Positions 4,387 through 42,043 of a DNA stretch of 64,000 bases are shown in pieces. Each line of letters begins with the position of its first letter. Positions within the stretch are counted from its first letter, which is position 1. The stretch comes from Cystobacter fuscus (lineage in GTDB: Bacteria > Myxococcota > Myxococcia > Myxococcales > Myxococcaceae), in assembly GCF_002305875.1 (NCBI RefSeq), contig NZ_CP022098.1, forward strand, positions 7,440,001 through 7,504,000. Direction: 5' to 3'. The notes under the pieces are model-generated. The model was not told the origin of the DNA and did not search any database. It worked only from the letters and a program-made list of their open reading frames with translations. Both the position numbers and the translations under genes were made by a program.

Positions 4387-7300
4387 AGCGTCAGTTCCTC
4401 GAGCTCGTCGGACGCGGCAGGGGCACGAGCGAGCAGCTCGCTGAGCTCGAGCTGCGTGTGCAGCGCCTCCACGATTCCGTCGAGGGCGGTTCCATCGATG
4501 AAGCGGGCCATGGGCAGATCCACGCCCAGCTCGCGCCCGATGCGGTTCTTCAGCTCGACCGCGCGCAGCGAGTCGAGCCCCATCTCGTTGAGTGAGATCT
4601 TCTTCTGGAGCACTTCATGATCCGGAGCGAACCCCAGCAGGGACGCCAGCCGGCCCTGGACATAGCGCGCCAGCAGCTCACGCCGACGCGTGCTGTCCGT
4701 CCGCTTGAGTTCATCCAGCAGCTCATGCATTCGCGAGGCGGCAACGGAGCGGGACTGCTCGGGCATGAGGCCGGAGAACAAGGGGCCGTGGCCCGGCGAG
4801 AAGGTCGCACCCGCCGCGGAGACATTGAAGGGCACCACGCCCATCTGGGTGACCTCTCGCGCCAGGAGCTCCTCGAGGATCTGCAGCGCCTGCTGAGGTG
4901 GGAGGCTGGAGGCGTCCGAAGCCGAACCGCCCCCCTTGGATGACGTCTTCGACGCCATTCCCGCACCGGACCACCGCCCCCAGTTGATGCTGAGCGCCGG
5001 CAACCCTCGCCTGCTCCGGTGATGCGCCAGCGCATCGAGGAAGCCGTTGGCCGCCACGTAGTTGGCCTGCCCCGCCACGCCAATGAGTGACGCCGCGGAT
5101 GAGTACATCACGAAGAGATCGAGCGGGAGCTGGGCCGTGGCGAGGTGCAGGTTCCACGCGCCCTGCGCCTTCGGCGCGAACACACGCGAGAAGCGCTCCC
5201 GATCCTGGAGCAACATCACCCCGTCATCCAGCACACCCGCCGAGTGGAAGATTCCCCGCAACCGGGACCCTCGAGCGGAGATCTCGTCCACGAGGCGCTG
5301 GACGTCCTCCAGGCGCGAGACGTCGGCCCGGGCCACGGTGACCTGACAGCCACTCGCCGTCAGCGCCGAGATCGTGGCCTTCGCCTCCGCTCCCGGCTCG
5401 CCGCGGCCGGTCAGGACCAGATGACGGGCCCCAGACCGAACCAGCCACTCCGCGGTGGCCAACCCGAGGGCTCCCAGGCCGCCCGTGATGAGATACGTCC
5501 CGTCCGCCAGGATCCGCACCGGCGTGGTCCGGCTCGAGGCCTTGCCAGGCCGCGCGAGCCGGGCACCCAGGAGCTGACCCCCGCGCAGGGCCATCATGTT
5601 CTCCTCGGGAGGCTGGACGATGAGCTGGAACAGCCTCGCGGGCGCATCCTCGCTGGTGTCCAGATCCACCAGCCGGCAGCCGAGCTCCGGATGCTCGATC
5701 GCGGCGGCGCGGCCGAGTCCCCAGATCGGCACCTGGGTGAGACCCTCCACGGCATCCGCCGGAGCGGCCGCGACGGCCCCACGCGTTGCCAGCCACAGCA
5801 CGGGCCGCTGAGCCCAGGGGGCGCGAGCCAAGGCCTGGGTGAGGTGGAGCACTCCCGCCGTACTGCGCGCGGTGGCGTCCGCCAGTCCCTCGGCGGAGAG
5901 CCCCGTCGCCCCGCGCTCGTCGAGTCCCCACAAGCAGGCAACGACCGTCGGCGCCGCGCCTCCCTCGGAGACCTCCCGCAGCAGCCTGTCGAAGCTCGCC
6001 GCATCGGTCGGATCGAGCCGGTAGTGATCCGGGTCGACGCGCTCGTAGCCCGCGCCCTGGGTCACCGTCACGCATGTCCCGGAGTGTTGCAGCACCCGCT
6101 CCTTCAACTGCGTCCCGACGCCACCCGAGTCCGCCAGCAGCAGCCAGCGACCGGGCCGGGTCGGGACCTGCTCGCGCGCCCCGGGAGCGCGCTGCTCACG
6201 CCACACCAGCTCGAAGAGGAACTCCCGCCAGGAGTCCGAGAACGAGGCCATGACCGCGCTCCGGTCGAACTGCTTGAGCAGCAGGCCCTCCACCTCGGCG
6301 ATGGGCTCTCCGTCCTCGTCGAAGATCCGCAGGTCGGTGCTCAGCACCTCGGAGGAAGCCATGGAACGCTCGTCGCCTCGGACGTGCACCCAGACGCTGC
6401 TACCGGGCTTCTTGAACCAGCGCAGCCGCTCGATCCCGACCGGAATCCGTTGCCGGCTCTCCCCCGAGGCCGGAACCTCCTCCATGAACACGGCCGCGAC
6501 CGCCTGGAAGCAAGCATCGAGGAGCAGGGGATGCAGCCAGTAATTCCCCACTCCCAGGATGTGGCTGTCGGGCAGCCGGACATGCGCGAGGCAGCCGTTC
6601 TTCTCGAACCTCAGCTCGTCGATGCCCTGGAACGACGGGCCGTACTCGAGCCCACCGCGCTCCATCATCTCGTAGAACGACGTGGTCGGGCGCGGCTGCG
6701 AGAACCGCGGGAACAGCTCCTTCGCGAGATCGACACGCGCCCCTCGCTCGAGGCCCTCCGCGACTCGACCGTGGGCGAGGCGGACCCAGCTCCGATCCGC
6801 GCCGCTTCCCTGGCTGTAGATCTCGAAGCGGGTGCTCCCCTCTTCCGGTGTCAGCACCGTCTGGACGTCATTCCTCACGGCCTCCTTGAACACCAGCGGC
6901 CGCTCCAGCTCGATCGCCTTCAGCTCGATCGGCCGCTCTCGCGGATCCGCATGGTGCGCGGCGCCGAGCGCCATCTCGACGTAGCAGGCGGCCGGGAGCA
7001 ACGTCGTCCCGAGGACGCGGTGCTCCCCGATGAAGGCGGGCTCGCGAGCGCTCAGGCGGGCCGCGAACCGTGCCTCCTTCGCTCCGGCGAGCGCCAGGGG
7101 GGCGCCCAACAACGGATGCACGTCGCCACGCGACAGCTCACGCTCCGGCGCGTACTGCCGGGAGCCCCCCTCCCCGGTCTCGATCCAGTAGCGCTCACGC
7201 TGGAAGGGGTACGTCGGCAGGGAGAGCTGCCGACGCTCGAATGGCACATCGAAAGCGGCCCAGTCGATCTCGCAGCCGCGCACATACAGCTCTCCCAGGC

Positions 7301-9887
7301 TGGAGAGAATCTGCGCCGTCTCTCCCTCCGCGGGGCGCAGGCTCGGGAGCCAGCACAGCTCGTCCGCCTCCGGGAAGACCCGGCGCCCGATTCCCGCCAG
7401 GATTGGAGCCGGACCCACCTCGAGGAACATCCGGTGTCCCTGCTCGCGCAGGAGCGACAGCCCCTTGGCGAAGAGGACGGGCTGCCGGAGGTGACGGCAC
7501 CAGTATTCGGGCCGGGTGATCTCGTCGACCACGAACCGGCCCTCCAGGGTGGAGGCCAGCGGGATGCGCGGCGCCGAGAACTTCACCCCGCGGAACGCCT
7601 CGGCCAGCTTGCCGAGCACCGGCTCCATGTGCGGAGAATGGTAACCCTGGGAGATCCGCAGGAGCTTGCGGTGGATCCCCCGCCGCTCGAACTCCTCCGC
7701 CACCTTCAGGACGGCGGACTTGTCTCCAGAGATGACCATGTCCTCCGGGCCGTTGATCGCCGCGAAGGAGACGATCCCCGCATAGGGCGCGATGGCCTGG
7801 GTCACGGTCTCCAGATTGGCGGCGATCGCCAGCATCGCGCCCTCCCCCGGAGCCTGACTCGCGAGCCGCGCGCGCTCCACGACCAACCGCAGCGCCTCCT
7901 CGATGCTGAAGACGCCCGCGACGACGGCCGCCGTGTACTCACCCAGGCTGTGCCCGATCAGCACTTCCGGAACGACGCCCCACGAGGCCCACAGCTCCGA
8001 AAGCGAGTACTCGAGCGCCACGAGCGCGGGCTGGGCATGACACGAGTCTTCCAGGAGGGTGGCGGACGCCTCACCGAAGAGAATGGTCTCGAGCCGGTGT
8101 TCGAGCAGCCCCTCGAGGGCCTTCGAGCACCGCTGCAGCGCCGTGCGGAACGCTGGCTGGGTCTCGTACAGCTCCCGGCCCACGCCCGGATGGAGCGAGC
8201 CCTGCCCCGTGAACAGGAAGACCGGCCTCGGGCTCTCCGTCCCCCGCCGTGCCTCGCGCTTGGGGCGGATCTTCTCGGCACGCAGCCGCGCCAGGCCCGC
8301 CCGCAGCCCGGCGGCGGTGGCTCCCGACACGGCCGCGCGGTGCTCGAAATGGGAGCGGCCCACATTGGCCGTGTAGCACCAGTCCCCCAGCGCCACGTCG
8401 TCCGGTAGGGCACGCTCGTGCTCTTCCACCAGCGCGTCGAGCGCGGCCTCCGTCTTGGCCGACATCGTCAGCACATGGACGGGACGATCCTTCTCCACCG
8501 GCGTCCGGGTCAGGAGAGGGGCCTCCTCCAGCACGATGTGGACGTTGGTGCCGCTGAACCCGAAGCTGCTGAGCCCCGCGATCCGGCGCCGCGCCCCCCG
8601 AGGCCACGGCTGCGTGGCCGTCGGGATGGTCACCGGCAGATCGTCCCAACGGATGTTCGGGTTGGGCCGCGCGAAGTGGAGGTGCGCCGGGATGGCCTCG
8701 TTCTGCATCGACAGGATCACCTTGATCAGCCCCGCGATCCCGGCGGCGGCCTCGAGGTGCCCGATGTTGGTCTTCACCGAACCGACGAAGAGCGGCTCTT
8801 CTCGCGAGGACTTGCGCCCGAAGACCGCGCGCAGTGCCTCCATCTCGATCGGATCCCCCAGCGAGGTCCCCGTCCCGTGCGCCTCGACGTAATCCACCTG
8901 GCCGGGCTCCACGCCACAGCCCTCCATCGCCATCCGGATGACGCGCTCCTGCGAGCGCCCGTTCGGCACCATCAGCCCGCTGCTCCGACCATCGTGGGTG
9001 ATCGCCGAGCCCCGGATGAGGCCCAGGATCGAATCCCCCTTGGCCAGCGCGTCCGACAGGCGCTTGAGCACGATGACGCCACAGCCCTCGCCGCGCGCGA
9101 AGCCATCCGCGGAGGCATCGAAGGTCTTGCAGCGCCCATCGACCGCCAGCATGCGGTTCTGGCACTCGGACATCATGGTGACGGGCGAGAGGCTCAGGTT
9201 GACGCCGCACGCGAGCGCCAGCTCACTCTCGTCGTTCCGGAGGCTCTGGCAGGCGAGATGGATGGCGACCGCGGAGGAGGAGCAGGCGGTATCCACCGTG
9301 AGCGCGGGGCCCTGGAAGCCCATCGTGTGAGCGAGCCGCCCCGCGGCCATGGAGGGGTAGTTCAGGGATGCCGACTGCATATCCCCGCCCACGGTGAGGC
9401 CGAGCAGGTTGTAGTCGTTGTGCATCATCCCCACGAAGATGCCGGTCCGGCTCCCGACGAGCCCGGCGGGAGGGATGCCCGCCCGCTCCAGGGCCTGCCA
9501 GCACCCCTCGAGCAGCAGGCGCTGCTGCGGATCCATGTCCTTCGCGTCACGCGGCGGGATCCCGAAGAAGCCAGGCTCGAACTGGTCGACGTTTTCGATG
9601 AAGGCGCCGCGGCGCGTGTACATCTTGCCCGGGACGCCCGGGGTGGGATCGTAGAACTCGTCGATGTTCCAGCGATCCGGAGGGATCTCTCGGGTCGCAT
9701 CCTTCCCCTCCTCGAGCAACTCCCAGAAGGTCTCGGGCAGCACCCCTCCTCCCGGAAACCGGCACGACATCCCGACCACCGCGATCGGCTCCGCGGCCAG
9801 GAGTTCCTTCTTGGAGCGAAGCTGGCTCGCCAGATAGGCGAGCTTCACGGGGGGGAGCTCTGCAATGCGTGTGGATAGTTTCGCCAT
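4383..9887 (-). CDS. Type I PKS module, KS-AT-DH-KR-ACP
   Basis: A single 1834-residue reducing module that adds one (E)-double bond per cycle. An N-terminal docking segment (1-33) precedes a complete KS: Cys202 in DTACSSS, His337 in EAHGTGT and His377 in NIGHLEA. The AT has GHSLGE (Ser647), but its specificity motif reads QGYHS (747-751), neither the malonyl HAFH nor the methylmalonyl YASH form. The DH has HxxxGxxxxP (HRVLGTTLLP) and the downstream Asp in LLLDAC. The KR has GGLGALG, an LDD motif (B-type) and the catalytic Tyr in QANYVAAN. No ER or methyltransferase is present. The C-terminal tail (DELEELTL) is the probable partner of the TubC docking domain of the next protein. It starts 7 bases after the previous gene. 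In a DKxanthene-type line this module could be used repeatedly. Confidence 0.93.
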   Translation of the reverse strand: MAKLSTRIAELPPVKLAYLASQLRSKKELLAAEPIAVVGMSCRFPGGGVLPETFWELLEEGKDATREIPPDRWNIDEFYDPTPGVPGKMYTRRGAFIENVDQFEPGFFGIPPRDAKDMDPQQRLLLEGCWQALERAGIPPAGLVGSRTGIFVGMMHNDYNLLGLTVGGDMQSASLNYPSMAAGRLAHTMGFQGPALTVDTACSSSAVAIHLACQSLRNDESELALACGVNLSLSPVTMMSECQNRMLAVDGRCKTFDASADGFARGEGCGVIVLKRLSDALAKGDSILGLIRGSAITHDGRSSGLMVPNGRSQERVIRMAMEGCGVEPGQVDYVEAHGTGTSLGDPIEMEALRAVFGRKSSREEPLFVGSVKTNIGHLEAAAGIAGLIKVILSMQNEAIPAHLHFARPNPNIRWDDLPVTIPTATQPWPRGARRRIAGLSSFGFSGTNVHIVLEEAPLLTRTPVEKDRPVHVLTMSAKTEAALDALVEEHERALPDDVALGDWCYTANVGRSHFEHRAAVSGATAAGLRAGLARLRAEKIRPKREARRGTESPRPVFLFTGQGSLHPGVGRELYETQPAFRTALQRCSKALEGLLEHRLETILFGEASATLLEDSCHAQPALVALEYSLSELWASWGVVPEVLIGHSLGEYTAAVVAGVFSIEEALRLVVERARLASQAPGEGAMLAIAANLETVTQAIAPYAGIVSFAAINGPEDMVISGDKSAVLKVAEEFERRGIHRKLLRISQGYHSPHMEPVLGKLAEAFRGVKFSAPRIPLASTLEGRFVVDEITRPEYWCRHLRQPVLFAKGLSLLREQGHRMFLEVGPAPILAGIGRRVFPEADELCWLPSLRPAEGETAQILSSLGELYVRGCEIDWAAFDVPFERRQLSLPTYPFQRERYWIETGEGGSRQYAPERELSRGDVHPLLGAPLALAGAKEARFAARLSAREPAFIGEHRVLGTTLLPAACYVEMALGAAHHADPRERPIELKAIELERPLVFKEAVRNDVQTVLTPEEGSTRFEIYSQGSGADRSWVRLAHGRVAEGLERGARVDLAKELFPRFSQPRPTTSFYEMMERGGLEYGPSFQGIDELRFEKNGCLAHVRLPDSHILGVGNYWLHPLLLDACFQAVAAVFMEEVPASGESRQRIPVGIERLRWFKKPGSSVWVHVRGDERSMASSEVLSTDLRIFDEDGEPIAEVEGLLLKQFDRSAVMASFSDSWREFLFELVWREQRAPGAREQVPTRPGRWLLLADSGGVGTQLKERVLQHSGTCVTVTQGAGYERVDPDHYRLDPTDAASFDRLLREVSEGGAAPTVVACLWGLDERGATGLSAEGLADATARSTAGVLHLTQALARAPWAQRPVLWLATRGAVAAAPADAVEGLTQVPIWGLGRAAAIEHPELGCRLVDLDTSEDAPARLFQLIVQPPEENMMALRGGQLLGARLARPGKASSRTTPVRILADGTYLITGGLGALGLATAEWLVRSGARHLVLTGRGEPGAEAKATISALTASGCQVTVARADVSRLEDVQRLVDEISARGSRLRGIFHSAGVLDDGVMLLQDRERFSRVFAPKAQGAWNLHLATAQLPLDLFVMYSSAASLIGVAGQANYVAANGFLDALAHHRSRRGLPALSINWGRWSGAGMASKTSSKGGGSASDASSLPPQQALQILEELLAREVTQMGVVPFNVSAAGATFSPGHGPLFSGLMPEQSRSVAASRMHELLDELKRTDSTRRRELLARYVQGRLASLLGFAPDHEVLQKKISLNEMGLDSLRAVELKNRIGRELGVDLPMARFIDGTALDGIVEALHTQLELSELLARAPAASDELEELTL

Positions 9888-9894
9888 CAGGTCC

Positions 9895-12800
9895 TCAGCT
9901 GGAGAGCACGCTCTCCAGCTCCTGGTCGATGAGTGAGGTCAATTCCTGTTCCGACAAACCCTGGATCTCCGCGGCGAGCGTCTCCTGCTCCTGCCGCGGG
10001 GCCTCCTCGGGCTTCTGGGCATCCACGCCCATTCCCAGCTCTCCGGCGAGGTGCGCGACGAGCCCGTCCACCGTGGGAAAGTCGAAGACGAGGGTCGAAC
10101 GGAGGCTCCTGCCGAGGTTGCTCATGAGCCGGTTCCTGATCTCGACCGCCAGCAGCGAGTCGACACCCAGCTCGAACAGACGCTCACCTCCCGCGATCTT
10201 CTCCGACTCCGCCAGGCCCAGGGTCGCGGCGACCAGCCGCTCCACGTGATGGCGCAGCAACTCCATCCGCCGGTTCGGCAGGGCCGCGTCCAACTGCTGG
10301 CGGAAGGCCGAAGGCTGCTCCCGGAGGGGTACCCCACCGACGAAGGCCTGGATGAGCGCCTGGCCCGCCAATCCCGGCAACTGCTGCGTCAGGAGTGTCC
10401 AGTCCACGGGGAAGACGCCGAGCTGGGGGCTCGCCCCGCCCAGAAGCCGTTCGAGGATGCTCAGCCCTTGCGCCACCGGGATGAGTCCAAAGCCCAGGGC
10501 ACCCGGGCGCCCCGTGTCCGCCTGGACGAGCCGCGCGGCCATTCCGGCCTCGGCCCAGGAGCCCCAGTTGATCGTCGTCGCGGGCCTGCCCTGGGCATGC
10601 CGCAGGTGGGCCAGCGCGTCGAGGAAGGCATTCGCGGCGACGTAGTTGGACTGGCCTGGCGTGCCAATGAGCGAGGCGACCGAGGAGAAGCAGACGAAGA
10701 AGTCCAGCTCCAGCCCGGCGCTCAGCTCGTGCAGGTTCCATGCGCCCTGGACCTTGGAGGCCATGACCTCGCGGAAGCGCTCGGCCGTCTGGTTGCCAAT
10801 GGTGCCGTCGCGGAGCACCCCCGCGGAGTGGAAGATGCCGCGCAGGGGCGGCGCGCCTCGCATCTCGTTCAGGACCTCCGCCACTTCCTCGCGCGAGGAG
10901 AGATCCACGAGAGCGACCTGGACGCGCACGCCTCGCGCCTCCAGCGCCTCGAGCTGCCCCTGGACCTCTGGTGAAGGACCCCGCCGCCCCAGCAGGACGA
11001 GGTGACGGGCACCCCGGTCCGCCAGCCACACGGCGAGGCGGAGCCCGAGCCCACCCAGACCACCCGCGATGAGATAGGAAGCCTCCGCGGAGATGGCCGG
11101 CTTCTTCTCCGGGCTCGCGCGAAGCCGGGCGCGCCCGAGCCGCGCGGTGTACAGGGCCCCGCCACGCACGGCCACCTGGGTCTCCCGCTCCGGGAGCAAG
11201 AGCGCGCGCACGAACGCTCCGAGTTCCTCGCGACGCCGCTCCCCCGCCAGATCGACGCGAAGGCAGCGCAGCTCCGGCAGCTCGGTGGCCACGGCCTGAC
11301 CGAAGCCCCACAGCGGGGCCTGGGCGATGCGCGGAGCCTGTGCGTCGGAGGGCAGGCGCTGGGTCCCCCGTGTGACGATGACGAGCCGGGGCATCTTGGC
11401 CCACGAGGTCCGCCCCAGGGCCTGCGTCAGGTGCAGCGCGCCCAGGCAACCTGGGATCTGCGCGGCCTCGAGCCCGGCCAGCGAGAACCCGGTATCCAGG
11501 TCCTCATCGAGCCCCCACAGGTAGAGCAGTCCGGTGGGGGGCTCGCCCTCCCAGGCCGACAGCAACTGACCGAAGTGGGCAGCGGAGCCTGGATCGAGAC
11601 GAATTCCGTCCGGGCCGCTGCTGAACTCGTTCCCCCTGCGCACCAGGGTGCAGCGATCCCCACGCTGCGTGAGCACCTCCATGAGCTCGGCGCCGAAGCC
11701 CCCCTCGTCGGCGAAGAGCACCCAGCTCTGGCTGACGGGGCGGGACTCCTCCTTGGCCACGTGCGGAGTCCAGGTGAGCTGGTACAGCCAATCCATGAAG
11801 TCGCTGTCGAGGCCGCGCAGCAACGCGTCCCTCTCGGCCTTGCGCACGGAGAGCCCCGTGAGCGCGGCGACCACCGTGCCATCCTCGGCACACAGGGTCA
11901 TGTCGGTGACGGGGTGTCCCACCGACCCCTCCGCGACACGCTGCCGGGCATGGGTCCAGATCCGCTCCGGCAGCGGCCGGTAGAGCTCGAGCCGCTGGAT
12001 GCCGACCGGCAGGTGCAGCGCATCACCTGGCGACAGCGGCGTGATCGCGGCCCCTGTCCGCAGACACGTGTCGAACAAGGCCGGATGGACGCGGTAGCTC
12101 CCGCTCCGATCCTCCGCCTGGCTGAACGAGAGCGCGGCGCCTGGTCCCCGGTGGAGCGACGACAGCAATTGCAGCGAGGGCCCGTAGTCCAGCCCCCGCT
12201 GGGCGATCGCCGCGGTGAGCTCCTCGATGGAGACGGGTGTGGGGCAGCTCTGGCGCCACGCCTCCCGCTCGGCCGAGGGTGGGAGCGCGCTCAGCGCCGA
12301 GACACGGCAGGTCACGTGGGTGATCCAAGGGGCGCGCGCGCCCGCTCCCTCCTCCGAGCGCTCGTCCCCCTTGCTCACCACCTTGCACGTGAAGCCCGCC
12401 TCCCCGTGGCTCTCCAGGAGGGTCTGGACGACCCGCGCCTGTGCGTCGGGCAGGACCAGGGGCTGGTGGAGCGAGAGATCCTCCAACGTCAGGGCCTCCG
12501 TGCCGAGCTGTTGCACCGCCGCCGAGGCCACCATCTCCACGAGCGCCGCGGCGGGAACCACCGCCTTGCCGTAGACGCGGTGATCCGTCAGGAAGGGCAA
12601 GGCTCCCGCGGTGAGCTCGCTGGAGAAGACCGTGGTCCCCTCCCGCAGCGCCGCGGAGTCCCACCGGGCACCCAGCAAGGGGTGGAGCGTGGAGCGTCTG
12701 CCCTGGCGGGACCAGGGCGCGGGAGCATCCAGCCAGTACCGCTGGCGCTCGAACGGGTAGGTCGGCAGGGCGACCCGCGCGCGTCCGTAGCCGGCATCGA

Positions 12801-31030: not shown

Positions 31031-31304
31031 GGACTTTGCCCGTCTTTTTTACAGACCCAAATCAACCAACCAGAAGCACTCACATTCCGGCACCTCCAGC
31101 TTCTCGATCTGGAAGATTGCCCACCGCGACGCTCGCCCCGCGTCCACCATGTGTCTTGACGGTTCGCGCCAGAGAGGGAGAGAGTCCGGGGTCATCCAGA
31201 AAGGTCTCGGCACGCAGCCTCGAGGCCCAGACGGCACACAGGCACCAGACTTCCGGAGCGCGCAGTCCTTCGTCCCGGCGGTCTACCAGCGCGTCAAGGA
31301 ACAC

Positions 31305-32441
31305 ATGGACTTCAGTTGGACGAGCGAACAGACAGAGTTATACGAGCGAGCACTGGCCTTTTCCCGGGCGAAGCTGGCCGAGGACAGGCACACCGGGCAT
31401 GGTCTCCCTCGTGAGCTGTGGCAACGGTGTGGTGAATTCGGCTTCCTGGGCCTGCCCGTGCCCGAGCGTCACGGAGGACTCGGGCTGGACACGCTGACGA
31501 CCGCGCGAGTGATGGAGGCGCTGGGGCGTGGCTGCGCCGACACGGGCCTGGTCTTCTCCGTGGGAGCCCACCTCTTCGCGTGCGTGCTTCCCATCCTGGA
31601 GAGTGGGGACGACGAGCAGAAGGCCCGCTACCTCCCACGTCTGTGTTCGGGGGAGTGGGTGGGCGCCAACGCCATCTCCGAACCAGAGGCCGGCTCCGAT
31701 GTCTTCGCCCTCAAGACGCGCGCGGTGCGCGAGGGCGACAGCTACGTGCTCGATGGGGGGAAGAGCTACGTCACCAACGGTCCGTCCGCCGACGTGTTCC
31801 TGGTCTACGCCGTCACCAACCCCGCGCACGGCTACATGGGCTTGAGCGCCTTCCTCCTCGAGAAAGACACGCCGGGCCTCTCGGTGGGAAGGCCCTTCGA
31901 GAAGATGGGGCTGTCCACCTCGCCCACCTCCCCCATCTATCTGGAGGGCTGCCGGGTGCCCGCCTCCGCCCGGCTCGGTGCCGAGGGTCACGGCGCACCC
32001 CTCTTCAAGCGCTCCATGCAGTGGGAGCGCGCGTGCCTGTTCGCCGGCTACGTGGGCGTGATGGAGCGGGTGATCGAGCAGACGGTGGACTTCGCCCGAC
32101 AGCGCAAGCAATTCAAGCGGCCGATCGGAAAGAACCAGGCCATCTCCCACCGGCTGGCGGACATGAAGCAGCGGCTCGAGGCCTCGCGGCTGCTGCTGTA
32201 CCAGGCCTGCTGGCGGATGGATCGAGGCGAGGAGGCGGTGATGGAAGTGTCGCTCGCGAAGCTGGCGATCAGCGAGGCCGCGGTCCAGTGCGGCCTGGAC
32301 GCCATCCAGATCCACGGCGGAATGGGGTACATGACCGAGACGGGAATCGAGCGGGTGCTGCGCGACGCCATTCCCAGCACGATCTTCTCCGGCACCTCCG
32401 AGATTCAACGCGACATCATCGCCAGCCACCTGGGCCTATGA
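31305..32441 (+). CDS. Acyl-CoA dehydrogenase-like L-prolyl-carrier protein dehydrogenase (PltE/RedW type)
   Basis: This 378-residue flavoenzyme should oxidise prolyl-S-carrier protein to pyrrolyl-2-carboxyl-S-carrier protein. Its sequence runs parallel to PltE as I remember it: an MDF start, TDMGLVF-like GCADTGLVFS, the FAD/substrate segment ANAISEPEAGSD, QWERACLFAGYVGVMER, RRQF-like RKQFKRPIGKNQAISHR, and a C-terminal TIFSGTSEIQRDIIA. The ATG at 31305 was chosen over the open frame from 31149 because family similarity begins there and AAGGA lies 6 bases upstream. The stop overlaps the start of the ligase gene by ATGA, so the two enzymes are made together. Together they predict a pyrrole starter unit. 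Confidence 0.88.
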   Translation: MDFSWTSEQTELYERALAFSRAKLAEDRHTGHGLPRELWQRCGEFGFLGLPVPERHGGLGLDTLTTARVMEALGRGCADTGLVFSVGAHLFACVLPILESGDDEQKARYLPRLCSGEWVGANAISEPEAGSDVFALKTRAVREGDSYVLDGGKSYVTNGPSADVFLVYAVTNPAHGYMGLSAFLLEKDTPGLSVGRPFEKMGLSTSPTSPIYLEGCRVPASARLGAEGHGAPLFKRSMQWERACLFAGYVGVMERVIEQTVDFARQRKQFKRPIGKNQAISHRLADMKQRLEASRLLLYQACWRMDRGEEAVMEVSLAKLAISEAAVQCGLDAIQIHGGMGYMTETGIERVLRDAIPSTIFSGTSEIQRDIIASHLGL

Positions 32442-33967
32442 CACTCGATCAGATCGTGAGCCGCACCGCGGCGCGGACCCCCGAGGCCATCGCCGTCAAG
32501 GGCCCGGATGAGACGTTCACCTACGGCCAACTGGACGCGCTCGCCAACCGGATCGCCCGCGCCCTGCGGGAGATGGGGGTGAAGAAGGGGGATCGGGTGG
32601 GCCTGTGGACGGAGAAGTCCGCGCGCGCGGTGGCCGCGATGCAGGGCATCGCCCGGCTCGGTGCCGCCTACGTCCCGCTGGATCCGCTGAACCCGGCGGG
32701 GCGGACGCGGCTCATCCTCGAGGACTGCCGGATGGACGTGCTCGTGACCACCGCCACACGCGCGGCCGGGCTGCGCGACGGTGGCATGGACCGGCTCCGC
32801 TTCCTGCTGGTGGACGACGAGGGCCCGGAGCTCGCGTGGGCCCGGCTGTCCGGTTTCTCCTCCGAGCCGCTGCCCTGGCATGGCTCGGGTGACCACGAGC
32901 TGGCCTACATCCTCTATACGTCCGGTTCCACGGGAACGCCCAAGGGCGTGTGCATCAGCCAGCGGAACGCGCTGGCCTTCATCCAGTGGTGTCACGAGCT
33001 GCTGGGCACCACCCCCGCCGATCGCTTCAGCAACCACGCTCCGTTCTTCTTCGATCTCTCGGTCCTGGATCTCTATGCGGCATTCCTCGGCGGCGCCTCC
33101 GTCACCCTGATCCCGGAGACGCTGGCCTTCGCGCCCGAGAAGCTGGTGGAGCTGGTGCTGCGCGAGCGGTTCACCGTCTGGTACTCGGTGCCCTCGGCGC
33201 TCATCCTGATGATGCAGGACGGTGGGCTGTTGAAGCACCCGGAGCTGCCCTTCCGGGCCATGCTGTTCGCGGGAGAGCCCTTCCCCATCAAGCACCTGAG
33301 ACCCCTGCGCGAGCACCTGCGAGGCGCACGGTTCTTCAACCTCTACGGCCCCACCGAGACGAACGTCTGCACCTTCCACGAGGTGACGGACATTGCCCCC
33401 GAGCGCACCGAGCCGGTTCCGATCGGCCGCGCGAGCTGCGGAGATCGGGTCTGGCTGGCCCGGCCGCCAGCGGATTCCGAGGAAGCACGGCAGGGGGGCG
33501 ACGCCGAGGTGGGTGAGTTGATGGTGGAGGGGCCCACGGTGATGCTGGGCTACTGGGGCCAGCCGCCTCAAGAGGACCGGCCGTACGCGACCGGAGACCT
33601 CTGCCGCCAGCTCCCGGACGGAAGCTTCGAGTACCTCGGGCGCCGCGACAACATGCTGAAGGTGCGGGGACGGAGGATCGAGCCCGGAGATATCGAGGCG
33701 GCGCTGCTCACCCACCCGGACATCCGCGAAGTGGGCGTGGTCGCCGCGGGCTCCGGCATCGAGGCGAGGCTGGTGGCCTTCCTGGTGAGCGCCTCCGAGA
33801 CAGCGCCCTCGCTGATCAAGGTGAAGCGGCACTGCGCCGATCGGCTCCCGCGGTACATGATCATCGACGAGCTCCGCGTGCTGCCGGAGCTGCCGCGGAC
33901 GCAGAATGGCAAGCTCGATCGGCGGGCGCTGCGTGAGCTGGCGCAGCGGCGCCCGTCGAGCGAATGA
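32438..33967 (+). CDS. Proline:carrier-protein AMP ligase for pyrrole starter (PltF/RedM type)
   Basis: A free-standing adenylation enzyme of 509 residues. The N-terminal half resembles PltF (VGLWTEKS, LGAAYVPLDPLNP). The core motifs are present: YTSGSTGTPKG, YGPTET, TGDL, and the C-terminal NGKLDRR lysine. By manual alignment the binding-pocket code reads DLLYLALVCK, which is the code I know for proline-activating enzymes of the pyrrole pathways (pyoluteorin, prodiginine and aminocoumarin types). It should load L-proline onto a carrier protein for the overlapping dehydrogenase. No carrier domain is fused to it and none is encoded beside it. The frame closes at TGA 33965-33967, followed by a 168-base gap without a gene. 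Confidence 0.9.
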   Translation: MTLDQIVSRTAARTPEAIAVKGPDETFTYGQLDALANRIARALREMGVKKGDRVGLWTEKSARAVAAMQGIARLGAAYVPLDPLNPAGRTRLILEDCRMDVLVTTATRAAGLRDGGMDRLRFLLVDDEGPELAWARLSGFSSEPLPWHGSGDHELAYILYTSGSTGTPKGVCISQRNALAFIQWCHELLGTTPADRFSNHAPFFFDLSVLDLYAAFLGGASVTLIPETLAFAPEKLVELVLRERFTVWYSVPSALILMMQDGGLLKHPELPFRAMLFAGEPFPIKHLRPLREHLRGARFFNLYGPTETNVCTFHEVTDIAPERTEPVPIGRASCGDRVWLARPPADSEEARQGGDAEVGELMVEGPTVMLGYWGQPPQEDRPYATGDLCRQLPDGSFEYLGRRDNMLKVRGRRIEPGDIEAALLTHPDIREVGVVAAGSGIEARLVAFLVSASETAPSLIKVKRHCADRLPRYMIIDELRVLPELPRTQNGKLDRRALRELAQRRPSSE

Positions 33968-34135: not shown

Positions 34136-36745
34136 ATGTCTTCCCCCATCCGCCGACTCGCGGCAGGCATCGCCGCGAGCGGAATCCTCATGTCCCCGCT
34201 CTCCCAGGCCGAGGCCGCGGAGTGCGGCCGGTATCTCCCCACCCTGGCGGACTGCCAGAACCCCGTGACGGAGTGCGCCCTCCAGGCCCGTGAGAAGGCG
34301 AGAACGGACCCCAACGCCACCTGCAACACCCTCATCCAGCAGGCGGCCAACTCCCTCCCGGCCCGCGCGCCCCAGCGCACCGTGGTGGTGCCTCCCACCC
34401 GCGACGTGAACAACACGAGCCTCACGCCGGATGCCGCCACCAAGCTCGCCTACATCCAGAACGAGGACCCCAACACGCGCACCATGAGTGGCCTGTCTGG
34501 CTTCTACCTGGGAGGCGTGCACAGGGCCCAGACCTATCTGCCTTCCTCCGGATTGTACGCCAGCCTCCTGGAGAGTCAGCGCCAGCAACAGCGCGCCGCG
34601 TGGAACGCCAACGGCAACGTCATCGACTCGTGCAACGAGTATGTCTACGAGAAGTACTACGACTACAGCGTCTTCGAGGATGCCTTCGTCAAGCTGGGCA
34701 ACAACTACCGCGCCATCTTCAACACCGCGTACGCGCCCGCGGTCAATGGCGTCACCCCGGCCTCGGCCATCGGGACGCGGGGCATCGTCAACCCCGTGCT
34801 GCGCGGCAAGGACGGTACGCCCTTCACTCCCAACATCCCCTTCCAGGCGGGTCTGCCCAAGAATCAATTCTTCACGGTACCGCTGCCCGCCGGCGACAAG
34901 GTCTCGATCGCCACGGGTGACAAGGATCAGGTCACCATCCTGCCGGGCCTGGTGACCGTCACGCTGAAGAACCTGCACCGCAATGGATTGTCACTCACCG
35001 GTGTCGTCTTCAATGACAGCACGCTCAAGCCCACCATCGACCAGGGCGCCAGCTACTACAACGAGAGCTGGAGCTGGCACAAGGCGATGAGCGAGACCAA
35101 CGCGGGGCTGCTGGACGAGCAGATGTATGAGATGGACCGGCTGCAGGAGGACTTCGCCGCGCTGCTCGCCCAGCGCGAGTCCCTGGCGGCGACCCTCGCC
35201 GCCAAGCTCCAGCCCAAGCCGCTGCCCGTGTACACCACCGGAGGAACGGGTCCGGGCCGCTTCTCGGAACAGTATTGGAGGGATCCCGTCTGGAACCCGG
35301 ATCCCACGAGCGTGATCCAGGCGGCCCGGTGGGATCTGGACGTGCTGTCGCCGATGACCCTGCCTGGCCTCGCCCCGGCCTCCCTGTCCGTGGCGTCCAC
35401 CCCGTCGGCCCTTCCGCCGACCCTTCCGCCCATCACCCCCACCATCCCCAACGTCCCCATCTTCGACATCCCGGTGGTGTCGCTGGCCTGCTCGGGCAAT
35501 CAGATCATCTGCCTGCTCTACCGGCTGGAGGCCCTGGATGACGCCATCGAGGCGGCCCTGCTCAACGCCAAGGCACGCGGCTGCCTCTCCTTCCAGCGCG
35601 GCGGAGGCGCCGCCGCGTGTGACTGGTCTCCCAAGCGCTTCGCGCAGCGGGTGACCTCGCTGTACCAGGGGAAGCGCGAGCAGCAACACGCCAGGTGCAT
35701 GGACTACACCGACGACAACTTCGCCGCCCTCAAGAGCAAGGCCATGTCGGCGGGCACGGTCTACTACCCGCCCACGAACTACACCCTCAGCCCCACCATG
35801 CTGGAGACGTACTTCACCCGCCGGGACCTCTACCTCAAGGCCCTGTCCACCGTGGCCGGAGGGCTGCTGGATCCCGTCACGGACAAGCCGCGCCTGAAGT
35901 GGGAGTCGGGAGACAGCTACAGCATGGGCAATGACACCTTTGGCGCCTCCGCCGAATACAACGTGTCCCTGTCGGTCGACAACCTGAGCAAGACCGACGC
36001 GTGTGTCATGTCCCCCCGGGTCCATGGCTTCTTCAAGGCCTCTGGCAGCGCGTTCGGCCACGGCGTCTCCCTGGTGCAGGCGGAGGCCACGGTGTCCGAT
36101 GTCCGGGCCGACATCGACCTGGATGTCCTCGACAACACCATCCATCTGGTGGACGAGCACAAGGACTTGATCGCCGGCACGTACAACCTGGTGTCCGGCG
36201 CGAAGTCGGCCAGCAAGACGTTCGTGGACGTGCAGACCCACTTCGTCATCGTGGTGGTGCCCGTCACGCTCGGCGCCAAGGTGGCCGGCACGGTGGGCCT
36301 CAACTACGCCCTCGACGCCTCGCACAAGCTGACCCGGCCGACGCCGACGAGCTGCGTCGTGTCCTCCATCGGGGTGAACGGCCGGGTGGAGCCCTATGCC
36401 TCGGTGGATGCCGAGCTGTACGCGGGCGTGGACCTCTTCATCGTCGAGGCGGGAGTCAAGGGCAAGCTCCAGCTGGTGCACGCGGGAATCCCTCTCAACA
36501 CCGTCGCGGAGCTGTCCTACGGCGCCAACAACAGCCAACAACTCGGGCTCCAGCTGGCCGGCCGCGCGGATCTCAAGTTCACCTTCCTGTCCGGAAGCAT
36601 CGCCGGCTACGCGGAGGTGGGCGTCTGGCCTTTCGAGAAGAACTTCGAGCAGACCCTCATCAGCTGGGACGGCCTGCACTACGACCTGAAGCTCTTCGAC
36701 CGGGACTTCTCGGTGCCGGTCGCGGACCTCCAGGAGTTGCTGTAA
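34136..36745 (+). CDS. Large exported beta-rich protein of unknown function
   Basis: I do not recognise this 869-residue protein. It begins with a Sec-type signal peptide (about residues 1-27, with a hydrophobic core ending near SQAEA) and should be exported. Near the N-terminus there are several Cys residues. A long middle part of mixed character ends in a Pro-rich stretch (around 410-440). The C-terminal third has alternating polar and hydrophobic residues, as in amphipathic beta-strands (for example SVDAELYAGVDLFIVEAGV). There are no membrane segments besides the signal. The ATG at 34136 has GGAG 7 bases upstream. The next gene encodes a vitellogenin-N-like protein, with a strong hairpin between them. 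The pair may act together as a lipid-binding system, but this is inference from layout and texture. Confidence 0.8.
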   Translation: MSSPIRRLAAGIAASGILMSPLSQAEAAECGRYLPTLADCQNPVTECALQAREKARTDPNATCNTLIQQAANSLPARAPQRTVVVPPTRDVNNTSLTPDAATKLAYIQNEDPNTRTMSGLSGFYLGGVHRAQTYLPSSGLYASLLESQRQQQRAAWNANGNVIDSCNEYVYEKYYDYSVFEDAFVKLGNNYRAIFNTAYAPAVNGVTPASAIGTRGIVNPVLRGKDGTPFTPNIPFQAGLPKNQFFTVPLPAGDKVSIATGDKDQVTILPGLVTVTLKNLHRNGLSLTGVVFNDSTLKPTIDQGASYYNESWSWHKAMSETNAGLLDEQMYEMDRLQEDFAALLAQRESLAATLAAKLQPKPLPVYTTGGTGPGRFSEQYWRDPVWNPDPTSVIQAARWDLDVLSPMTLPGLAPASLSVASTPSALPPTLPPITPTIPNVPIFDIPVVSLACSGNQIICLLYRLEALDDAIEAALLNAKARGCLSFQRGGGAAACDWSPKRFAQRVTSLYQGKREQQHARCMDYTDDNFAALKSKAMSAGTVYYPPTNYTLSPTMLETYFTRRDLYLKALSTVAGGLLDPVTDKPRLKWESGDSYSMGNDTFGASAEYNVSLSVDNLSKTDACVMSPRVHGFFKASGSAFGHGVSLVQAEATVSDVRADIDLDVLDNTIHLVDEHKDLIAGTYNLVSGAKSASKTFVDVQTHFVIVVVPVTLGAKVAGTVGLNYALDASHKLTRPTPTSCVVSSIGVNGRVEPYASVDAELYAGVDLFIVEAGVKGKLQLVHAGIPLNTVAELSYGANNSQQLGLQLAGRADLKFTFLSGSIAGYAEVGVWPFEKNFEQTLISWDGLHYDLKLFDRDFSVPVADLQELL

Positions 36746-36755
36746 CCGCGCTGCT

Positions 36756-36782
36756 CGGGGCTCCGGTCCCACCGGAGCCCCG
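36756..36782 (+). terminator. Strong 12-bp hairpin between the two secreted-protein genes
   Basis: CGGGGCTCCGGT (36756-36767) and its exact complement ACCGGAGCCCCG (36771-36782) flank a CCC loop. The hairpin starts 11 bases after the stop of the upstream gene. No T-run follows, so it could be a terminator of a high-G+C type, a partial attenuator, or a stabiliser of the upstream mRNA that makes the two genes unequally expressed. Confidence 0.6.
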
Positions 36783-36812
36783 CCCTTCCCCTCCCCCACC
36801 CGGAACCTCCTC

Positions 36813-38669
36813 ATGAACCCGCGCAAGGCGCTCGTCGCCGGCATCCCGCTCGCGCTGCTCTCCCTCCTCGCCCTCTGGAATGCCCTGGGCTCGCCCACTC
36901 CCTCCCAGGACGCCTCCTCTTCCCCCGCGCCCTTCCGCCTCCACGTTCCCACCGGACAGCGCTGGACCTACCGACTGGACTACGAGGCCCGGACCCAGGT
37001 CCAGCTCGCTGGCCCCCAGAAGGACCAGGCGCTGGCTGGAGGACTCCACCTCGCGGGGGACCTGGTCCTCCGGGGTCAGGGGAAACGTGGCGGCTCGTGG
37101 CTCGTGGCGCTGAGACTGGAGAACCTCCAGCGGCACTCGCTGCGGGTCTTCGGCCAGGAGGTCCTCCCGGACACGGCCACCGTGGAGGCGGTGTTCGGCG
37201 GACGCGAGGCGGTGCTGGAGCTCAGCGAGGAGGGCCTCGTCCAGGCCGTCTCCTTCCGGGAGGAAGACCCCTCGCTCTTCAAGAACACCGTGCAGACCCT
37301 GGTGGGGGAGCTCCAGGTGGTGGTGAAGGACGGCGCCTCGTGGACGGTGGAGGAAGGCACCTCGCGGGGTCGCGCCCTGACGGAGTACGAGCGGCTGGGA
37401 GAGGACGCGTCGGGGGTGAGGCTGCTCAAGCGGCGCACGCGGTACACGGAGCTCCGGGGCCTGGGGCAAGACGGACGCGTGCGGCTCGCCTCGCGCTTCG
37501 AGGCGTCCCTGGCCCACGAGGGCCTCTGGGAGCGGCTCGTGGGCGAGGAGACCGTGGAGCGCCTGGGTGCGAACGGTGAGCCCACGGCCTCCACCCAGGT
37601 CCGGGTGAGCCTGGTGCGCGGGACCCACGGCCGTGTCGAGCGGGAGGACCCCGCGCGCACGGCCGCGACCCAGCGGCTGGCGCCAGGAGTCCTGGTGGTG
37701 GATCCCAAGGTACGGGCGCAGATGCTGACCCAGCAGGTGGATGGCATGACGGCCGAGCGGCTCTTCTCCCTGCTCGAGCTCCACGCCAACGGGGGCGTCC
37801 TGCCGGATCACAACCACTTCCTGCTCCAGGCCACGGGGCTGCTGGAGCAGCACCCCGAGCTGTGCGCGAAGATGGTGGAGCTGTTCCAGCGGCCCTCGCT
37901 GGACACCCGGGGCCGCGCGCTGGTGTTGGATCTGCTCGCCGGCACGGGCACGCCCGAAGCCCAGGCCGCGCTCGTCCAGGCTCTCTCCACGAAGGAGGCA
38001 CGGGGCGACACGCGCTATCACATGCTGCTCAGCCGCCTGTCCCTGGTGAGCGAGCCCACCGTGGACACGGTGCGCTTCGCGGAGCGGACCTACGGGGCCA
38101 CCCAGGGAGACCTCCATGTGTCGAGCGCCTACGTGCTGGGCGCGACCGCCGGAGCGCTCTACCGTCAGGAGCAGTCCGTCGAGGCCCTCGCCGCGGTACG
38201 GCGTCTGGCCTCGGATCTGGGCGAGGCCCGGACGCCCTCGGAGCAGAGCCACCTGCTGCTCGGACTGGGCAACGCGGGAGTCGCCGAGCAGACCTCGCTC
38301 ATCGCCCGCCATGCCGGCTCGTCCAGCGCCGAGGTGCGACGAGCCACGGCCAAGGCGCTGCGGAAGATCCAGACACCCGAAGCGGCCAGCACCCTGCTGT
38401 CCCTGGTGGTGGACGCGGAGGCTCCCGTCCAGGCCGCGGCGATGGACTCGCTGGGCCGGCGGCCCCTGGACTCGGACACGCTCGTGCGGCTGCGTGATGT
38501 GGCCCTCTCCGGCGGAATGAAGACCGAGAATTATCATCCGCTCGTGTCATTGGTGGCGCCCTACCTGCAAACCGAGCCGGCCGTGAGAGATCTGCTGGAG
38601 TTCCTGCTGACCCAGGACGTGCCGGATCGGCAGATCCGCTCGCGTATTCGCGGCCTGCTGGAGACATGA
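36813..38669 (+). CDS. Exported vitellogenin-N/large-lipid-transfer-protein-like protein with HEAT-like repeats
   Basis: This 618-residue protein has an N-terminal signal or anchor (residues 1-30). Residues 40-290 look like the beta-barrel part of the vitellogenin/MTP/apoB N-terminal domain: an opening VPTGQRWTYRLDYEA, then a body of strands and a segment EDPSLFKNTVQTLVG that recalls the region before the barrel Cys/Tyr strand in those proteins. Residues 300-618 are helical repeats of HEAT type (LLDLLAGTGTPEAQAALVQAL; AEVRRATAKALRKIQ), as in the alpha-helical domain of lipid transfer proteins. The other domains of animal proteins are absent. The upstream exported protein could supply the beta-sheet part. 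The assignment rests on pattern and order, not on a search; a plain HEAT-repeat protein is the alternative. Confidence 0.55.
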   Translation: MNPRKALVAGIPLALLSLLALWNALGSPTPSQDASSSPAPFRLHVPTGQRWTYRLDYEARTQVQLAGPQKDQALAGGLHLAGDLVLRGQGKRGGSWLVALRLENLQRHSLRVFGQEVLPDTATVEAVFGGREAVLELSEEGLVQAVSFREEDPSLFKNTVQTLVGELQVVVKDGASWTVEEGTSRGRALTEYERLGEDASGVRLLKRRTRYTELRGLGQDGRVRLASRFEASLAHEGLWERLVGEETVERLGANGEPTASTQVRVSLVRGTHGRVEREDPARTAATQRLAPGVLVVDPKVRAQMLTQQVDGMTAERLFSLLELHANGGVLPDHNHFLLQATGLLEQHPELCAKMVELFQRPSLDTRGRALVLDLLAGTGTPEAQAALVQALSTKEARGDTRYHMLLSRLSLVSEPTVDTVRFAERTYGATQGDLHVSSAYVLGATAGALYRQEQSVEALAAVRRLASDLGEARTPSEQSHLLLGLGNAGVAEQTSLIARHAGSSSAEVRRATAKALRKIQTPEAASTLLSLVVDAEAPVQAAAMDSLGRRPLDSDTLVRLRDVALSGGMKTENYHPLVSLVAPYLQTEPAVRDLLEFLLTQDVPDRQIRSRIRGLLET

Positions 38670-40626: not shown

Positions 40627-42003
40627 TCAGCTCGCGGCGGCGAAGCCCCCGTGGAACGTCACGGGGATGGGGTGGTCGAAGTGCACGGTCGCCACGGGAC
40701 CGTCCTCGAGGTGCTGTCCGTCCAGGACGGCGACATAGGAGTGGTCGCTCGTCGCGTCGTAGACGAGGTCGAGCACGAAGGCGTCATCCTCCCCCTCGCC
40801 ACGCGGCACGAGCACGGGCTCGCTCGGCACATGCCCGGCCGGCACGGCCCACTCCGCGCCGCTCCCGCCGTCGAGCGCGATGCGCGTAATCCCCGGGTAC
40901 TTCCGGTCCGCGCCCTGGCGCCTGGTCTGCGCGAAGAGGGCGCCGTAGCGCGCCCCGTGCACCCGCGGGTGCAGCTGCGGGAACTCACAGGGGGCGTCGA
41001 AGAGCTTCGTCTCACGCACCTTCCCGGCCTTCAGGTCCAGGTGCAGGCGCGTCAGCACCGGGGGCGGCCCCTTCCCCTCGACCTCGCCGATGCCGTCGAG
41101 CGAGAACTCCGGGTAGCGGCACAGGTCGATGCTCGGACCGCCTTCCTCCTCGAAGGCATTCGCGAAGTGCCAGGTCCAGAAGGCATCGAGTTCGAAGGTG
41201 CGTGGCCTCTGGATGTCGTCCAGTGGAACGACGATGAGCCGCGCTCCGAGCTCCGGCTTCCACTGGAAGAGCTTCGTGAAGTCGGCCAGGCCCATCATCG
41301 CGCGCAGGAGATTGAGCTTCACCGGCCCCAGGAAGAGGATGAGGTGCCGCTCGGTCGCGATGAAATCGTGCAGCATGGCGTGCCAGGGCGCCTCGACCGT
41401 GCCGAGCTTCGAGGGGGTTCCCTCATCCGGCAGCGCGTAGAGGTCGATGAGCATCTTCGAGCCATAGCGGACGCCGAAGTTGAAGGTCGTCCGCAGCGAG
41501 GCGACGCGGTGCGGGTGCGCGGAGAAGGCGCCTGTCACCACGCCCAGGTCCGTGGCCTCGAGCGTGTCCAGCGTGCCCGGGTCCATCTCCTGCAACAGGC
41601 CACCTTCCATCAGCGCGAAGAGCCGGTCCTGCCACCAGAAGGTCGAGGTGTTCCCCGTCGTCTTCCCCGTGGCGGCGCGCGCGGCGCGCATGCGGTCCAG
41701 CCACGAGGCCGCCGAGTTGAAGAGAAACCGCCCCGCCTTCTCCTCCGCGCGGTAGCCGGCACTCTCGACGATGCGGCAGGCACCCCGCGCGCCACCGCCC
41801 TCGAAACGCACCGCCGTGATCGCTCCATCCGCCTCGAACGCATGCGAGAGGCTCGCACCGAAGCGCTCGAAGAGGCCCGGTCCCGCTCGGAAGAGCGTGC
41901 CCCGGAGCGGCTCGGGAAGCCGCCCCTCGACCCGCAACGGCTCGAAGCCGTGGGGCCGGGAGAGCGACCGCAGGAGAGGACTCACGGCGTTCTGGCTGGT
42001 CAT
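40627..42003 (-). CDS. Carotenoid cleavage oxygenase family protein
   Basis: A 458-residue enzyme of the seven-bladed beta-propeller family that cleaves carotenoids or related alkenes with a non-haem iron. Candidate iron-binding histidines occur in the expected order: TGAFSAHPHR, WHAMLHDF, FWTWHFANAFE and the final TFHGGF. The N-terminus has the family entry GTLFRAGPGLFE. A GTG at 42009 is in frame, but the ATG at 42003 is better placed (GAGGAG 8 bases upstream). It is divergent from a TetR regulator, and the operator between the two genes suggests repression by it. Myxobacteria make carotenoids in response to light, but the substrate of this enzyme is unknown. Confidence 0.87.
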   Translation of the reverse strand: MTSQNAVSPLLRSLSRPHGFEPLRVEGRLPEPLRGTLFRAGPGLFERFGASLSHAFEADGAITAVRFEGGGARGACRIVESAGYRAEEKAGRFLFNSAASWLDRMRAARAATGKTTGNTSTFWWQDRLFALMEGGLLQEMDPGTLDTLEATDLGVVTGAFSAHPHRVASLRTTFNFGVRYGSKMLIDLYALPDEGTPSKLGTVEAPWHAMLHDFIATERHLILFLGPVKLNLLRAMMGLADFTKLFQWKPELGARLIVVPLDDIQRPRTFELDAFWTWHFANAFEEEGGPSIDLCRYPEFSLDGIGEVEGKGPPPVLTRLHLDLKAGKVRETKLFDAPCEFPQLHPRVHGARYGALFAQTRRQGADRKYPGITRIALDGGSGAEWAVPAGHVPSEPVLVPRGEGEDDAFVLDLVYDATSDHSYVAVLDGQHLEDGPVATVHFDHPIPVTFHGGFAAAS

Positions 42004-42043
42004 CGACACTGCTCCTCGGAAGGGTGGACCCGCAACGGGATTG

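Follow-up and report, generated by a model that had tools for sequence, protein, structure and literature searches.

P0002, a probable bacterial homologue of the animal large lipid transfer protein core, and its dedicated partner P0001 in Myxococcota

The P0002 protein of Cystobacter fuscus, judged by profile comparison and by its predicted fold, is very probably homologous to the barrel and helical domain at the N-terminus of the animal large lipid transfer proteins (LLTPs), of which it would be a divergent bacterial form. The protein encoded just upstream, P0001, is its dedicated partner, as linkage and co-inheritance of the two genes show. Because the lipid sheets of the LLTPs are absent from its chain, P0002 was classed with clear homologues of the LLTP core rather than with complete LLTPs, and it is plausible that the two proteins together represent a split LLTP.

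Results

The gene pair

The genome of C. fuscus consists of a single 12.35-Mb contig, on which the window, that is, the whole stretch of 64,000 nucleotides analysed, lies at 7.44-7.50 Mb. P0001 (869 residues) and P0002 (618 residues) are encoded in tandem in this order on the plus strand, separated by 67 nt (Table 1). Comparison with the same-genus sister species G003 gave a dN/dS of 0.39 over 866 codons for P0001 and 0.24 over 618 codons for P0002, and both genes are under purifying selection. Within the 67-nt gap, whose folding energy is -27.3 kcal/mol, lies a strong hairpin rich in G+C, which is found in the window and in G003, is absent from five other relatives, and may set an unequal expression of P0001 and P0002. 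A scan for promoters and terminators and a search of plasmids yielded nothing informative.

Table 1. Features of the gene pair (window positions; ORF coordinates are as first given)
Feature	Position	Strand	Basis
P0001, partner with AxA-type signal sequence (about residues 1-28)	34136..36745	+	ORF, translation, relatives
P0001 C-terminal domain, residues 576-869, candidate lipid-binding sheets	35861..36742	+	periodicity, alignment
G+C-rich hairpin of 12 bp between P0001 and P0002	36756..36782	+	present in window and G003
P0002, probable bacterial LLTP-core protein	36813..38669	+	PF01347, PDB profile and fold matches
P0002 probable membrane anchor, a basic and hydrophobic stretch at the N-terminus (about residues 1-27)	36813..36893	+	
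P0002 predicted beta-barrel domain, about residues 40-300	36930..37712	+	AF2 model, apoB barrel match
P0002 predicted helical domain, residues 296-618, LGN motif at 485-487	37698..38666	+	

Sequence homology of P0002

P0002 matched the Pfam family Vitellogenin_N (PF01347) with 29.7 bits for the whole protein, above the cut-off of 24, and with 23.2 bits, just below it, when one stretch was scored in the genome search. Nearly all of the PF01347 matches listed begin at profile position 300 or later, in the helical part, with one beginning at 232. The family profile was built from 29 rows picked by hand from a wider set of relatives, leaving out rows cut by locus ends, duplicates and several near-identical or intact rows (e.g. 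L007, L019, L024, L028, L078, L092). PF01347 was found at E <= 0.01 in 23 of the 29 rows, with a best value of 2.6e-18. The last residue is missing in 27 of these rows, in 21 of the 23 rows of the P0001 family and in the relatives of the alignments drawn from them, for which at most a slight effect on scores is expected. Against the PDB, the profile matched lipovitellin (1lsh) at E 5.7e-16 in a single stretch, from profile positions 82-530 to chain residues 26-507, and MTP at E 2.4e-4. The ALGNAG motif of P0002 is also printed in the lipovitellin row of the profile alignment.

HEAT repeats are a possible source of such matches. HEAT_2 of Pfam was also found on P0002 (36 bits for the whole protein, residues 475-547), and designed HEAT proteins scored best in the PDB search with the full profile, as might be seen if P0002 were an ordinary HEAT-repeat protein joined to an unrelated beta domain and its likeness to vitellogenin were cross-talk between HEAT repeats. 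Since HEAT repeats cross-match, the vitellogenin match was put to three tests. With a profile freed of the HEAT part (P0002 residues 40-470), 1lsh ranked first of 177,635 PDB sequences at E 2.8e-8, and the alignment was collinear from 37-410 to 26-424, crossing both the barrel and the helices. The profile of the barrel alone also placed 1lsh at rank 1, yet at E 0.12, a value that does not establish the barrel from sequence by itself.

Predicted structure of P0002

The template-free AF2 model of P0002, made from eight sequences (mean pLDDT 79, pTM 0.51), places 12 strands and, among them, two helices (121-128 and 154-167) within residues 50-289, followed directly by 20 helices from 298 to 617. 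Helix 154-167 may lie inside the barrel, as a helix does in lipovitellin. The lack of a vitellogenin-like barrel and helical horseshoe, which the earlier note had named as counting against its proposal, was not observed in the model. The ten best Foldseek matches of the model were all MTP, apoB, lipovitellin or vitellogenin, bee vitellogenin among them (E 4.0e-17, for MTP, to 3.6e-9), with alignments spanning 395-735 columns. VIA-align gave Z 19.4 over 535 residues against 1lsh (rmsd 16.0) and, between the barrel and the apoB barrel of 9bd8, Z 18.0 with 245 residues aligned at 4.6 A. Identity to the LLTPs in the structural alignments was about 12%, and the whole-chain superpositions, with rmsd of about 16-20 A, say nothing on the orientation of the domains.

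The helical part taken by itself also reached Z 14.6-18.5 against chains of alphaRep, importin and karyopherin, which again would suit an ordinary HEAT-repeat protein. Because these chains match too, the helical part is unspecific, and it is the barrel and the domain order that make the match specific. The top ranking of lipovitellin after removal of the HEAT part, collinear through the barrel, together with the match to the apoB barrel and the LLTPs filling the ten best fold matches, speaks against HEAT cross-talk as the whole of the resemblance; that explanation was rejected as very improbable. The order of a barrel followed by helical repeats, as in vitellogenin, MTP and apoB, had been proposed in the earlier note from the DNA letters and their translations and is borne out by PF01347, by the HEAT-free profile and by the predicted fold.

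The structural matches of P0002 stop at residues 613-623 of MTP and lipovitellin and at 632 of apoB (9bd1), and later, at 773-776, in bee vitellogenin. In human MTP, the C-sheet comprises residues 604-717 and the A-sheet residues 722-886 (PMC10907164). P0002 ends with helices, at residue 618, and the C- and A-sheets of the LLTPs are not in its chain. The P0002 chain stops about where the lipid-binding sheets of MTP begin.

A conserved asparagine of the helical domain bears on these sheets. N487 of P0002 is asparagine in 27 of the 29 family rows and corresponds to N479 of MTP, a placing taken from the end coordinates of the match to 8eoj (profile 73-196 to 356-484) and not from a printed MTP alignment. 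According to PMC7444587, N479 in helix 10 of MTP forms a hydrogen bond with the C-sheet, and the defect of a zebrafish mutant is caused by proline replacing the leucine that neighbours it (L477 in man). Since N487 is conserved at the position of MTP N479, the surface for docking of the sheets may have been kept in a chain that has none. The HEAT repeats shown in the same alignment often contain ALG too, and N487 is an argument and no proof.

Signals at the N-termini

Every row of the P0002 family (29/29) begins with a hydrophobic stretch, with tryptophan near its end in many rows, and 17 of the 29 rows have no AxA-like site. Judged by these features, the stretch is probably an anchor in the inner membrane, with the chain facing the periplasm. 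In the P0001 family, an AxA-like site was found by a loose pattern in 20 of the 23 rows and a clear hydrophobic stretch in 16, the starts being uncertain in three rows (L037-L039). Because P0002 starts like an anchored protein and P0001 with an AxA-type signal, an anchored core and a released partner are suggested. The export proposed in the earlier note suits P0001, with its AxA-type signal, and is doubtful for P0002 as a free protein. One relative of P0002 (L094, 4114-7947) has a lipoprotein-like signal (LLAC) instead of a plain hydrophobic anchor.

The partner protein P0001

The last third of P0001 (residues 576-869) showed the amphipathic periodicity of beta strands with z 4.79, which was reached by none of 500 shuffles, and the other two thirds, with z 0.13 and -0.59, had no excess over shuffles. 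The same C-terminal periodicity was found with z > 3 in 22 of the 23 family rows, P0001 included, the exception being L037 (z 1.29). These rows were picked by hand, and others (e.g. L002, L032, L041, L043, L046 and L056) were left unused. The amphipathic strands that the earlier note had seen in the last third of P0001 are confirmed by this periodicity. Outer-membrane beta barrels end, as a rule with exceptions, in an aromatic residue. P0001 ends in L, and an aromatic last residue was found in 2 of the 23 rows (L051 and L035, both Y), which argues mildly against an outer-membrane barrel.

No credible match to P0001 or its family was found in Pfam, NCBIfam, PHROGs or the PDB, where matches were at chance level, nor did profiles match the sequences of the LLTP lipid sheets. 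The AF2 model of residues 455-869, made from six sequences, had a pLDDT of 34.6, too low to assign a fold. The C-terminal domain was proposed to be the missing sheets because P0002 ends about where the sheets start and the lengths are similar, 294 residues in P0001 against about 283 in the C- and A-sheets of MTP. Since sequence gave no match and the model failed, the case for a lipid-sheet role of P0001 is made by periodicity, length and linkage.

The partners fall into long proteins of about 730-910 residues and short ones of about 380-460 residues counted from the first start codon, which have only the C-terminal domain (576-869 of P0001) in common and vary greatly in their N-terminal half and in length. 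Such variation might be expected of clients, and P0002 could be an MTP-like anchored loader or chaperone of the periplasm that assists P0001 in folding and lipid uptake, with P0001 alone as the secreted lipid carrier. The anchor-like start of P0002 and the cleavable-type signal of P0001 would agree with this division of labour, and MTP is described as loading apoB in PMC10907164. The same source places the lipid pocket of MTP in its own chain, whereas P0002 ends before it, and the partners have a single domain of fixed size in common, as is more to be expected of a part that docks than of varied clients. We regard P0002 as a loader as somewhat unlikely. The reading in which the C-terminal domain of P0001 provides the sheets is taken up in the Discussion.

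Distribution and linkage

The searches covered Myxococcota, 14 control genomes and, in one wider contig scan that found close relatives only, further contigs. PF01347 was found at E <= 0.001 in 59 of 195 Myxococcota genomes, 53 of them above the cut-off, and in none of the 14 controls. Because some of these matches could be to HEAT repeats only, the HEAT-free barrel profile was also run, and it was found in 55 of the 59 positive genomes (E <= 0.001). At E <= 1e-5 it was found in at least 78 of the 195 genomes and at least 24 of 90 genera, the counts of the genome searches being lower bounds from a limited number of candidates scored per genome (13 in most). The relatives of P0002 differ down to 20% identity, and the distribution is patchy within the genus of the window itself, with two barrel matches in G003, one in G001 and none in G002. 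A further pair lies at 0.83 Mb of the C. fuscus chromosome contig (G000:C1:827545-830678), with a short partner of 388 residues and a PF01347 score of 42.7 bits, against the 23.2 bits of P0002 in the same search.

Linkage was counted in the 59 Myxococcota genomes chosen for their PF01347 match, with distances taken between profile matches and not between gene ends. A P0001-family match lay within 4 kb of 104 of the 139 barrel matches. It was upstream on the same strand in 71 (within 551 nt in 66), downstream on the same strand in 25 and divergent in eight. Conversely, a barrel match was found beside at least 100 of the 106 P0001-family matches. The remaining 35 barrel matches had no partner within 4 kb, some of them at the ends of contigs or records, and some of these genes may be truly single, for example the second copy behind dnaA in L061 (9548-11446; PF01347 36 bits). 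When P0001 and P0002 were each searched for independently in one set of 59 relatives, they were found in 15 and 14 genomes, respectively, with 13 in common (Fisher p 3.5e-10). The gene pair, whose conserved linkage the earlier note had made decisive for its proposal, is kept across Myxococcota. The protein distances of P0001 and P0002 over 19 pairs were correlated with r 0.957, a value reached in none of 2000 permutations; 19 of the 23 P0001-family rows were used, since L034, L040, L024 and L048 have no mate in the P0002 alignment. This correlation is explained by the shared descent of linked genes as well as by contact between the proteins.

Linkage and co-inheritance would also suit an LLTP core reused as a lipid-free chaperone of the periplasm or as a scaffold for surface display that serves the amphipathic beta domains of exported proteins. 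The distant relative in L100, which follows a large, cysteine-rich and secreted-looking protein within a single open frame, would fit such a scaffold. In animals, this fold and the position of N487 serve the lipid pocket, and a lipid-free scaffold is in our judgement unlikely.

Long frames were seen at three loci. In L100 (G171:C28:12000-31500), a stop-free frame of 4916 codons encodes a large cysteine-rich EGF-like protein followed by the P0002 relative; a sorting-tag-like end, which we take to be MYXO-CTERM-like, precedes the relative, and the relative has a lipoprotein-like start. This frame may represent one protein. A fusion of P0001 and P0002 was rejected in L094, where the P0002 relative probably starts within the long frame, and in L093, where the long frame was taken as a probable artefact because of the 1.8-kb overlap between the frames of the two genes.

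Genomic setting

Upstream of the pair lie genes for an acyl-CoA dehydrogenase and an AMP-binding enzyme (31302-33964) and for ketosynthase proteins, and downstream those for a metallo-beta-lactamase fold protein, a GST and an RPE65-type oxygenase. The last of these, a protein of the RPE65 family of carotenoid-oxygenase type (343 bits), is encoded near the pair at 40630-42009 on the minus strand. The sister species G003 keeps both the upstream and the downstream neighbours as far as its loci L030 and L005 extend. At five other related loci, which reach roughly 3.5 kb upstream and 6 kb downstream of the pair, the best tblastx matches to the flanks of the window were of about 35-57 residues at E 4.5e-7 or weaker. 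Loci L005-L008, compared as well, extend too little upstream to count. A lasting tie of the pair to the PKS or pigment cluster, beside which the earlier note had placed it, was rejected: because five relatives have the pair without these neighbours, it is no regular part of a pigment pathway. Within this genus, the pair may still have a use there.

Of the three Myxococcus loci, L061 and L062 have dnaA after the pair, and L060 of M. qinghaiensis does not. In L061 (M. xanthus AM003, 6001-11446) and also in L062, the pair stands immediately before dnaA and a second P0002-type gene immediately after it, and thus two genes of the LLTP-core type flank the gene of the replication initiator.

Discussion

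P0002 resembles the LLTPs (lipovitellin/vitellogenin, the large subunit of MTP, and apoB; the "LLT module" of PF01347) in the order of barrel and helical domain, in the collinear match to lipovitellin and in the ALGNAG motif. It differs from them in being bacterial and of low identity, in ending before the lipid sheets, in its probable anchor and in having one cysteine. Domains of the VWD, DUF1081 and DUF1943 types were absent by Pfam from P0001, P0002 and the 29 and 23 rows of their families, which sets the pair further apart from the animal proteins. HEAT-repeat proteins of the HEAT_2, PBS-lyase and alphaRep types share the repeats of residues 475-547 with P0002, but they match no P0002 barrel in the profile and fold searches made.

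The mechanism that we propose is a two-chain LLTP, with the core from P0002 and the sheets from P0001 supplied in trans, and we regard it as evenly balanced between right and wrong. P0002 would be anchored in the inner membrane through the hydrophobic stretch at its start and would face the periplasm, and P0001 would be taken by its signal sequence to the periplasm or beyond. There, the C-terminal beta domain of P0001 would dock on the helical domain of P0002 and would supply the lipid-binding sheets in trans. The pair would then extract membrane lipid and carry it or transfer it onward, as MTP or lipovitellin might if made of two chains.

PDI is a thioredoxin-fold protein, and its heterodimer with MTP is likewise a complex of two proteins around an LLTP core, if the pair is as proposed here; P0001, by contrast, has no thioredoxin-fold match in Pfam and would give the lipid sheets. 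Mla, Lpt, Lol and the bridge-like bacterial lipid carriers have folds different from that of the LLTPs, and none of them was among the Pfam and NCBIfam matches of the pair. The pair would resemble them in serving the movement of lipid across the periplasm.

A Pfam domain match on these genomes is open to any scan and is not new as such. Among the full-text literature matches listed, with subscription journals mostly outside the coverage, no paper on bacterial LLTPs was found, and within that scope three things are new: the split arrangement, the family of conserved partners and the position assigned to N487. A phylogenetic study treats the LLTPs as an animal superfamily (PMC1783640), and Myxococcota are noted for sterol synthesis (PMC12004948). 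That the two-chain LLTP of Myxococcota is old, and that the single-chain MTP, vitellogenin and apoB of animals were derived from it by gene fusion, seems to us decidedly unlikely.

LLTPs move much of the lipid of animals, and the wide and diverse bacterial family of the core offers an outgroup for the superfamily. The bacterial core is also a small model of an LLTP core working without lipid sheets in its chain, and the pair allows a direct test of whether a lipid pocket can form in trans. If the proposal is true, the pair would represent a new lipid route in the myxobacterial envelope.
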